Assembly: GCF_024505085.1 (NCBI RefSeq)
Contig: NZ_JANIBC010000014.1
Span: 1-35,156 of the forward strand
Origin: Parvularcula maris
GTDB lineage: Bacteria > Pseudomonadota > Alphaproteobacteria > Caulobacterales > Parvularculaceae
DNA: 35,156 bases
Reading direction: 5' to 3'
The notes under the pieces were generated by a model, which had not been told where the DNA came from, did not search any database, and saw only the letters and a list, made by a program, of their open reading frames with translations. The stretch's first letter is position 1. Each line of letters opens with the position of its first letter. The translations under genes were made by a program, and so were the position numbers. Shown here in pieces: positions 23,894 through 35,015 of the stretch.

Positions 23894-25426
<1,533 letters not shown>

Positions 25427-25428
25427 TT

Positions 25429-25465
25429 CCCTCTCCCCGCCGGGGAGAGGGCTAGGGTGAGGGGG
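25429..25465 (+). repeat. palindromic repeat family 1, copy A (left of DUF559 gene)
   Basis: CCCTCTCCCCG and CGGGGAGAGGG form an 11-bp stem around one base (25429-25451), followed by CTA and GGGTGAGGGGG. It fills the guaB-DUF559 gap. The GAGGGGG end lies 4 bases before the ATG at 25470, so it probably serves as that gene's Shine-Dalgarno region. An inverted copy is at 25817-25855, and an inverted pair is at 32427-32578. Confidence 0.85.
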
Positions 25466-25469
25466 CGCC

Positions 25470-25862
25470 ATGGCCAAACGCGAGAACATCGGTCTCAGTA
25501 GAGAGCTACGGCAGACGGAGAACCGCGCCGAAGAAGAGGCATGGCAGACCCTGCGCCTTCTTCGCAAAGAGGGCTGGCCCGTCCGTAGGCAACATCAGAT
25601 CGGTCCGTATATTGTCGATTTTGCGATCACTAAGGCGCGCCTGGTAATCGAAGTGGATGGCGGGATTCATCGCGAACAAGAAGTCGCCGCACGCGATGTG
25701 GAGCGAGAGGGTGTTCTTCGAGCTGATGGGTGGAACGTGCTGCGAGTTTCCGCCCAGTTCGCTCGGCATGGGGATCATCTGATCGAAATGGTGCGTGCAG
25801 AGATCAAGCGCTGCTGCCCCCTCACCCTTCACCCCTCTCCCCAGGGGGAGAGGGGAACATAG
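25470..25862 (+). CDS. DUF559-domain protein, PD-(D/E)XK (Vsr-like) endonuclease fold
   Basis: The 130-residue protein belongs to the DUF559 group, which shares the fold of very-short-patch-repair and other PD-(D/E)XK nucleases. Candidate active-site residues are E21, D50 (GPYIVDFAI) and E61-x-D63 ([10 protein letters not shown]), followed by RD...R...[11 protein letters not shown]. The motif E-x-D in place of E-x-K is normal for the group. There is no experimentally agreed function that I know of. The start ATG 25470 takes its ribosome-binding site from repeat copy A. The last 14 residues ([14 protein letters not shown]) are translated from repeat copy B, so the nuclease domain really ends near residue 114. 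Its stop overlaps the rluE GTG by one base (TAGTG). The interior looks somewhat less GC-rich than the neighbours. Confidence 0.85.
25817..25855 (-). repeat. palindromic repeat family 1, copy B (inside the DUF559 3' end)
   Basis: Read on the minus strand it has the copy A layout: CCCCTCTCCCC paired with GGGGAGAGGGG (stem 25832-25842 with 25845-25855), then a short spacer and GGGTGAGGGGG. It encodes the C-terminal tail of the DUF559 protein. Its GAGAGGGG lies about 7 bases before the GTG of rluE and probably acts as that gene's ribosome-binding site. Confidence 0.85.
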
Positions 25863-26404
25863 TGCTCCTAGCCTTCAACAAGCCCATGAACGTGCTCAGC
25901 CAGTTCACCTCGGAAGGGGGCTGGCCAGGGCTTGCGGAGTATATCGACGTGCCCGGCGTCTATGCGGCGGGCAGGCTGGACCGTGATTCGGAGGGGCTTA
26001 TGCTGCTTACCGATGACGGCAGGCTGCAGGCGCGGATCGCCTCGCCTAGAGCCAAGACGGCCAAGACCTATCTCGTCCAGGTGGAGGGTGAACCCTCAGG
26101 CGACACGCTTGATGCGCTGCGACGCGGCGTGACGCTCAAGGACGGACCCACCGCCCCGGCGGAAGTCGAGCTGATCGAGCCGCCCGCTCTCTGGCCTCGC
26201 AACCCGCCGGTCAGGGTGCGCAAGACCGTGCCTGACAGCTGGCTGCGCCTCACCATCACCGAGGGGCGCAACCGCCAGGTCCGGCGCATGACGGCCCATA
26301 TCGGCCACCCCACGCTGCGCCTGGTCCGCTGGCAGATCGGCGGCATCGGTCTTGCAGGCCTCGCGCTGGGGGCGTGGCGGGAAGTGTCGCCGAACGAGCT
26401 CTGA
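25862..26404 (+). CDS. rluE: 23S rRNA pseudouridine synthase RluE
   Basis: RluE isomerises U2457 of 23S rRNA to pseudouridine. The 180-residue protein matches the short RsuA-family enzymes without an S4 domain. It has the catalytic [17 protein letters not shown] with its Asp, then [37 protein letters not shown] and [17 protein letters not shown], the last two being RluE-specific runs. The true start is taken as GTG 25862 ([15 protein letters not shown]), because everything upstream in the open frame (to 25730) is translated from the DUF559 gene and repeat in another frame. Expression therefore seems to depend on the repeat-borne ribosome-binding site and on coupling to the DUF559 gene. Confidence 0.93.
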
Positions 26405-32415: not shown

Positions 32416-32426
32416 GTACTCTCCCA

Positions 32427-32578
32427 CCTCTCCCGCCCGCGGGAGAGGTCGAAATCTTCCATTTCGGGTGAGGGGATCGGCGAAGCCGTGATGTTGGACC
32501 TACGACGAACGTCTGCGCTCAGAAGCCCTCACCCCCGGCCCCTCTCCCCCGGCCCCTCTCCCGCAAGCGGGAGAGGGG
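32427..32578. repeat. palindromic repeat family 1, inverted pair C/D without a gene
   Basis: Copy C (32427-32475, plus) is CCTCTCCCGC/GCGGGAGAGG, a second small hairpin GAAAT/ATTTC, then GGGTGAGGGG. Copy D (32526-32578, minus) is CCCTCACCCCC followed by the CCCCTCTCCCGC/GCGGGAGAGGGG hairpin, with an internal duplication of CCGGCCCCTCTCCC. As in the DUF559 cassette, hairpins are outside and GGGTGAGGG arms inside; here only 50 bases lie between them, with no gene. It looks like a MITE-like miniature of the cassette. Confidence 0.8.
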
Positions 32579-34899: not shown

Positions 34900-35015
34900 C
34901 CCCCTCCGCCCTTCGGGCACCTCCCCCACCCGTGGGGGAGGGAAGATACAACCGACGCCTGCTCTTTATCGCTCCCCCTCCCTGAGGGGGAGCTGCCGGT
35001 AGGCTGAGGGGGAGG
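34900..35015. repeat. palindromic repeat family 2, inverted pair G/H
   Basis: Copy G (34900-34942, minus) and copy H (34971-35015, plus) have the E/F layout (CTCCCCC hairpin, small second hairpin, GAGGGGG arm), but here the hairpins face inward and the arms outward, opposite to E/F. They occupy most of the gene-free stretch 34789-35092. Nothing recognisable lies in 34789-34899 or 35016-35080. Confidence 0.75.

Follow-up and report, generated by a model that had tools for sequence, protein, structure and literature searches.

The DUF559 locus of Parvularcula maris

The stretch of DNA analyzed here, which we refer to as the window, comprises positions 1 to 35,156 of contig NZ_JANIBC010000014.1 from Parvularcula maris (RefSeq assembly GCF_024505085.1), i.e., 35,156 nucleotides. 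Our analysis confirms the observation with which the initial annotation of this DNA had started: a DUF559 gene (positions 25470 to 25862) is boxed between two inverted palindromes. The features of the window that are relevant to this study are the following.

23951 to 25426, plus strand: guaB (IMP dehydrogenase; PF00478, 1.3e-161), left neighbour of the insertion site
25429 to 25464, plus strand: left palindrome, a triplex-type (TM/BoxC/PIT) unit with its hairpin on the outside and its GGGTGAGGG tag on the gene side
25470 to 25862, plus strand: DUF559 gene (130 codons), coding for a predicted Vsr/EDxHD-like nuclease of 130 aa (PF04480 match, fold match and invariant columns)
25816 to 25854, minus strand: right palindrome, an inverted copy overlapping the 3' end of the DUF559 gene
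25862 to 26404, plus strand: rluE-like pseudouridine synthase gene (PF00849 on the longer frame 25730 to 26404), right neighbour
32426 to 32475, plus strand: left unit of a gene-less pair, of a two-hairpin type with a GGGTGAGGGG tag
32525 to 32578, minus strand: right unit of the gene-less pair, partner of 32426 to 32475
34918 to 34942, minus strand: single palindrome belonging to a different class (CCTCCCCCAC..GTGGGGGAGG); palindromes of that class flank the DUF559 gene on contig C11 of the window genome

The two genes that border the cassette are guaB and the rluE-like gene, to which we refer as guaB and rluE throughout. A comparison with the gene starts in two further genomes (G004 and G009) suggests that the rluE-like gene probably begins with a GTG codon that overlaps the stop codon of the DUF559 gene. 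The left palindromic unit (25429 to 25464) has the sequence CCCTCTCCCCGCCGGGGAGAGGGCTAGGGTGAGGGG and is laid out as CCCTCTCCC-CGCCG-GGGAGAGGG-CTA-GGGTGAGGG-G; a purine-rich stretch that is visible in the sequence is a putative ribosome-binding signal of the DUF559 gene supplied by this unit. The inverted-repeat arms on the two sides of the gene measure 38 and 39 nt, and the left arm reaches position 25466, ending three bases upstream of the ATG at 25470 and not four, as had been stated initially. The right palindrome is situated within the DUF559 reading frame (stop codon at 25860 to 25862) and encodes the last 14 residues of the protein, just as the first reading of the sequence had it. With an inverted-repeat score of 50, the window gene stands apart from the 780 ORFs of the loci examined, just six of which score at least 30. 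Judged by these ORF scores, the paired inverted palindromes at the window gene are beyond chance.

Fold and candidate catalytic residues of the DUF559 protein

The window protein matches PF04480 with an E-value of 1.6e-22, a match that passes the family cut-off. A Pfam scan of this protein at E-values of up to 0.001 returned DUF559 and REase_MTES_1575 alone, and no HUH/Y1 (Y1_Tnp) domain. In an AlphaFold model (14 sequences; mean pLDDT 78.9), the closest fold is that of 3hrl, an endonuclease-like protein with sequence similarity to the window protein, followed by the catalytic domain of the homing endonuclease I-Bth0305I (3r3p; E 4.3e-4, TM 0.60/0.77); the match to the Vsr fold is weaker (E 0.045). 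Six residues (E21, D50, E61, D63, H67, and D76) are invariant in 30 aligned sequences, including that of the window, and represent candidate catalytic residues. The PF04480 match and the modelled fold support the proposal that the enzyme is PD-(D/E)XK/Vsr-like and not of the HUH type. Its likeness to the EDxHD homing endonucleases (I-Bth0305I) and to Vsr lies in the nearest solved folds after 3hrl, and the candidate catalytic residues are conserved among the aligned sequences; it differs from them in that the cassettes have palindromic ends and varied sites, and that no intron or intein was seen. Among the seven other window proteins that we scanned, there was no cytosine methyltransferase.

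DUF559 genes are generally flanked by inverted palindromes

To measure flanking, we compared the 250 bp upstream of a gene with the 250 bp downstream of it and scored their highest local match in inverted orientation, with a threshold of at least 30 points. When all loci were pooled under one setting, inverted flanks were found at 80 of 122 DUF559 loci versus 6 of 766 control ORFs, a result that bears out the expectation of the initial annotation that DUF559 genes should generally be flanked by palindromes. The control ORFs stem from the same loci as the genes and served as the negative control; there are 780 of them in the fetched loci and 766 in the slightly smaller pooled set. The loci are partly non-independent, since several can come from one genome and the genomes are related, and the p-value of Fisher's test (2e-76, computed from 81/122 and 6/780) is cited for its magnitude alone. 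On the pooled measure, the remaining 42 of the 122 DUF559 loci are without inverted flanks.

The 122 loci consist of 59 loci from the window genome and 40 of its relatives (65 found, minus six that were fragments, contained internal stops, or were weak matches in long frames), 30 loci from across the window's class, nine of the ten matches in genome G049, 11 hand-picked strong matches from other genomes, and all 13 distant loci. Among the 59 loci, which derive from 30 of the 41 genomes, 37 score at least 30, compared to 6 of 780 ORFs. Across the window's class, 18 of 30 DUF559 genes are flanked, as against none of 16 neighbouring ORFs, and a further set of DUF559 loci yielded 17 flanked genes out of 20. 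In other phyla and classes, where the loci were chosen by protein similarity and flanks of 300 bp were compared, the figure is 8 of 13; two of 40 neighbouring ORFs also score at least 30 there, so that the background of this distant set is higher than elsewhere. Coincidence with transcription terminators was considered as a source of the flanks and is unlikely in view of the scores of the control ORFs.

The orientation of the palindromic units varies. At the 80 flanked loci, the tag points toward the gene in 18 cases and away from it in 12, with 50 undecided. A rule by which the tags of every cassette face inward is not borne out by these numbers, and the mixed orientation of the units relative to the gene is something that a full model must explain.

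Most genes are paired with a palindrome class of their own

In the 22 genomes that harbor at least two DUF559 genes, the right flank that best matched the left flank was the gene's own for 49 of 69 genes, with 22 expected, and scores of at least 30 were reached in 49 of 69 cis versus 28 of 198 trans comparisons. This whole-flank comparison supersedes an earlier cis/trans comparison (36/43), which we dropped because its design favoured cis. Genome G049 contains ten DUF559 matches and roughly 200 palindromes, and eight of the nine that were examined are flanked by palindromes that are, for the most part, visibly different from one another; two of these loci (L187 and L189) have one palindrome class in common. 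Similarity between the proteins tracks similarity between their palindromes weakly (Mantel r of 0.13 overall and 0.11 between genomes).

The window genome itself contains three DUF559 genes by our search, all of them flanked, and by three different palindrome classes. When the left and right flanks of the three genes were scored against each other in all combinations, the values on the diagonal were 70, 49, and 50, and those off the diagonal did not exceed 26. The palindrome class of the window gene is rare in its own genome, while looser relatives are present. Its unit pattern, with up to three mismatches allowed, occurs at five places, two of which are the window pair itself; one other convincing place (on contig C22) is part of a different type of pair. 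In the 400 kb of this genome that were sampled, CCTCTCCCG pairs and palindromes of the CCTCCCCC type are commoner; the latter type flanks the DUF559 paralogue on C11. The suggestion that the flanks belong to the most abundant repeat family of the genome is thus not upheld for the window gene; the class of its C11 paralogue is common in the sampled stretch.

A second, gene-less pair of palindromes 6.5 kb away (32426 to 32578) had initially been described as sharing this arrangement. This pair is real, and the arrangement is indeed shared, its tags facing inward as they do at the DUF559 gene. Since its left unit carries an additional small hairpin and the pair is a member of a genome-wide paired family of about 150 bp, it does not fall into the palindrome class of the window gene.

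Palindrome abundance follows the presence of DUF559

To count palindromes, we used the pattern CCTCYCCC-N2-14-GGGRGAGG, which covers some of the palindrome classes and not all of them. The window genome contains 217 copies of it, and none of the pattern read backwards. In the set of 41 genomes formed by the window genome and its 40 relatives, the median number of copies is 12.5 in genomes with DUF559 (n = 30) versus 1 in those without (n = 11; p = 1.9e-4). In 193 genomes spread evenly across the window's class, probably Alphaproteobacteria, 39 of the 46 that have a full DUF559 match (E<1e-12) contain five or more copies, versus 8 of the 147 that lack one (p = 1e-25); when any DUF559 match is counted (62 genomes), the corresponding figures are 41 of 62 and 6 of 131. 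Exceptions exist in both directions, with fewer than five copies in 7 of the 46 full-match genomes and at least five in 8 of the 147 others. Of the 18 families in which both states occur, 17 have a higher mean copy number in the genomes with DUF559; genome size and GC content enter the abundance test only through this within-family comparison.

Repeat abundance thus follows DUF559 presence, a relation of the kind that the initial annotation had put up for testing. The partnership between DUF559 genes and palindromes is well supported, the strength of the case lying in the flanking of 80 of 122 genes together with this dependence of abundance on DUF559.

Empty sites and insertions of the cassette into other genes

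The intergenic region between guaB and rluE is occupied by a DUF559 cassette in genomes G000 and G009. In G004, the two genes are 18 bp apart and there is no cassette; it is likewise absent from G001, where the spacer contains another palindrome. Other genes follow guaB in the remaining six of the ten genomes of the genus, and the site is therefore informative in four genomes only. Nucleotide divergence at the empty sites is too high for the junctions to be read. The DUF559 protein of G009 is 58% identical to that of the window in the aligned stretch, compared to 88% for GuaB, and the G009 palindromes match each other in a version of their own; these data indicate that, at this one site, the gene has changed jointly with both of its ends. 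By eye, the palindrome in the guaB-rluE spacer of G001 (locus L054), at the site that holds the cassette in the window, is CGTC-like.

In phyla other than that of the window, palindrome-DUF559-palindrome cassettes lie in frame within other genes: within hsdR at one site in three loci (L010, L011, and L014) and at a different site in a fourth (L012), and within hsdM in L009. Alignments to uninterrupted homologues from plasmids of Psychrobacter, Acinetobacter sp. NEB 394, and Sulfuricurvum reveal that the extra segments of hsdR and hsdM are edged by palindrome-encoded peptides. The interrupted genes are from metagenome or draft assemblies, and the frame of L010 ends early (648 aa); all five loci agree with each other. 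Mobility of the cassette as a whole, which the first reading had proposed, is supported by the empty sites and by the in-frame insertions into hsdR and hsdM. The hsdM gene of L009 additionally contains palindrome-like inserts without a gene.

These sites bear on the possibility that DUF559 spreads by homing, with the nuclease cutting palindromes or pairs that already exist and repair copying the gene into them, so that the gene would spread and the palindromes would not. Such a process would be in keeping with the proximity of the modelled fold to the homing endonuclease I-Bth0305I, and with the position of the window gene, which occupies the spacer of a pair whose tags face inward. However, cassettes are present where a relative or homologue is devoid of a palindrome (guaB-rluE in G004; hsdR and hsdM), the genes usually possess a matched pair of their own, and the orientation of the units is mixed. 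We consider homing an unlikely explanation.

The left palindrome conforms to the triplex motif

Holder et al. 2015 (PMC4666352) describe the BoxC/PIT/TM element as an intrastrand-triplex motif, whose origin is left open in the text of that report. The left unit of the window (25429 to 25463) is a strict match to the BoxC/PIT/TM consensus CCCTCNCCC N3-6 GGGNGAGGG N3 GGGNGAGGG, and the right unit (25819 to 25854) fits it only if a longer second loop is allowed. Of the 122 DUF559 loci, 15 have a strict TM unit no more than 300 bp away, versus none of 766 control ORFs. According to passages of PMC4666352, E. coli copies were demonstrated to fold into the intrastrand triplex in vitro, the TM loci of E. 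coli are unstable, and a search around the E. coli copies revealed neither transposases nor integrases; the main text of that paper contains no mention of DUF559 or ycjD. The window units resemble the elements described there in that the left unit fits the consensus and inverted pairs occur, and they differ in that an associated mobility gene is absent from this account of the motif.

E. coli K-12 has an intact TM (TMECO 9 of PMC4666352) 167 nt past the stop codon of ycjD, in the gap between ycjD and fabI. Inspected by eye, the 3' end of ycjD is overlapped by a decayed palindrome; we looked for a matching left unit at ycjD and did not find one. Also by eye, this region (L267) displays the 3' end of ycjD, then an imperfect duplicate of that end, and then the intact TM, and there is a separate hairpin upstream of ycjD. 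Our PF04480 search gave no match in the control genome of E. coli, whereas YcjD is a DUF559 protein according to its RefSeq annotation.

The instability of TM loci (PMC4666352) would suit a different role of DUF559, namely that of a Vsr-like repair or restriction nuclease that is kept against unstable triplex repeats, or of a selfish gene to which the palindromes serve as marks. In the same vein, VsrA, a DUF559 protein of C. crescentus, is tied to cytosine methylation and to the DNA-damage response in passages of PMC12907096, and the window protein has a weak match to the anti-phage protein ProA, far under the cut-off of that family. Both forms of this proposal leave unexplained why the gene has a unit of its own class on either side and why cassettes reside within hsdR and hsdM, and we regard it as improbable.

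Y1_Tnp and GIY-YIG genes have flanks of other types

The type of palindrome differs between nuclease families. The D-type motif (GGGNGRGGGG) is present on both sides of 32 of 122 DUF559 genes versus none of 47 small GIY-YIG genes, none of eight Y1_Tnp genes, and none of 766 controls. The GTAG-type motif is found on both sides of one of the 122 DUF559 genes and of three of the eight Y1 loci. Inverted flanks as such are present at six of the eight Y1 loci on the pooled measure, and at five of the eight when measured from the frame ends.

If a Y1 transposase of the RAYT kind, or the repair and replication of the host, moved the palindromes, DUF559 might be a mere passenger caught between two of them. 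The window genome does contain a weak Y1_Tnp match, and passages of PMC3733652 report the motif GGGGWSAS in the terminal repeats of some tyrosine transposase genes. Yet Y1_Tnp was found in 6 of the 41 genomes, compared to 30 of 41 for DUF559, and the flanks of the Y1 loci are different, none of the eight having the D-type motif on both sides. Furthermore, neither a flanking frequency of 66% versus 0.8% for other ORFs nor the agreement with the abundance prediction in 17 of 18 families would be expected of a passenger. A RAYT is therefore unlikely to be the mover, and we regard the passenger role as improbable. In an observation made by eye, the weak Y1_Tnp-like gene of locus L239 (G000, contig C4; match at 87033 to 87188) is followed by an apparent GTAG-type palindrome pair.

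A predicted mobile cassette that would work like REP/RAYT

The best explanation of our data, and one that we consider likely, is that a DUF559 gene and its own palindromes constitute a mobile cassette whose predicted enzyme recognizes and spreads its own palindrome class. The gene and its two inverted palindromes would form one mobile unit, and the small palindrome pairs that are scattered over the genome would be gene-less relatives, i.e., miniature forms, of such cassettes. The Vsr/EDxHD-type protein would most likely recognize palindromes of its own class in a single-stranded or folded state (hairpin or intrastrand triplex), a triplex or hairpin fold in single-stranded DNA being an attractive candidate for the recognition signal. 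The enzyme might then nick or cut at the recognized palindrome, and repair or replication from the cut could place copies of the pair elsewhere, either together with the gene or without it. Binding, cutting, and the copying step are what we infer; the association of gene and palindromes, its class-specificity, the dependence on DUF559, the empty and occupied sites, the cassettes within other genes, and the modelled fold are observed or computed. The simplest account would be a selfish element in two parts, a Vsr-like nuclease together with the palindromic ends that belong to it.

The initial annotation had likened this arrangement to that of RAYT transposases and REP elements. The analogy holds in the sense that the cassette works like such a system, and fails as a statement of membership. 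As in REP/RAYT (TnpA-REP) systems, REPtrons, and REPINs, a small nuclease gene is flanked by inverted palindromes, gene-less singles and pairs occur elsewhere in the genome, and there are several genes per genome, usually with one class each. In contrast, as stated in passages of PMC3733652, RAYTs belong to the HUH/Y1 enzymes and their REPs have a GTAG tag, whereas DUF559 is Vsr/PD-(D/E)XK-like and its palindromes bear a GGGTGAGGG-type tag. Measured by the defining features of RAYTs and REPtrons, the window locus has the inverted-palindrome flanks; it has neither the Y1_Tnp domain nor the GTAG tag, its units carrying GGGTGAGGG instead. In the openly licensed literature that we searched, also under the family name, we found no paper that links DUF559 to palindromic repeats. 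Our proposal gives DUF559 a function that can be tested, and carries the principle of RAYT and REP over to a nuclease whose fold is unrelated.

Small GIY-YIG genes and CGTC repeats

Small GIY-YIG genes (PF01541) had been chosen as a negative control and came out positive with a different type of repeat; we kept them as a test of specificity. This set comprises 47 small loci, four frames of UvrC length having been excluded (none of the four is flanked), and 19 of the 47 genes are flanked by inverted palindromes. The CGTC-type motif is present on both sides of 10 of the 47, versus none of the 122 DUF559 genes, none of the eight Y1_Tnp genes, and 3 of 766 controls. Passages of PMC3733652 portray CGTC repeats as abundant palindromes, mostly of alphaproteobacteria, without associated transposase genes. 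The CGTC-tagged REPs described there differ in their tag from the palindromes of DUF559, and here they are found around small GIY-YIG genes and not around DUF559.

It is conceivable that every palindrome superfamily has a small nuclease of its own, the folds of these nucleases being unrelated, so that the known pairing of GTAG repeats and HUH RAYTs would be joined by that of GGGTGAGGG/triplex palindromes and DUF559 and by that of CGTC repeats and small GIY-YIG proteins; we regard this generalization as evenly balanced between true and false. If true, nuclease-plus-palindrome elements would represent a general kind of mobile DNA that has arisen several times in evolution, and DUF559 would be an enzyme that recognizes triplex-forming ends. 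The BoxC/PIT/TM repeats, which are known from E. coli and many other bacteria, would gain a common family of "unknown function" as their partner, and there is a hint that CGTC repeats may likewise have a GIY-YIG partner. Small solitary GIY-YIG genes, which we encountered at loci L209 to L234 and L247 to L266 of the window's class, are candidates for this role.
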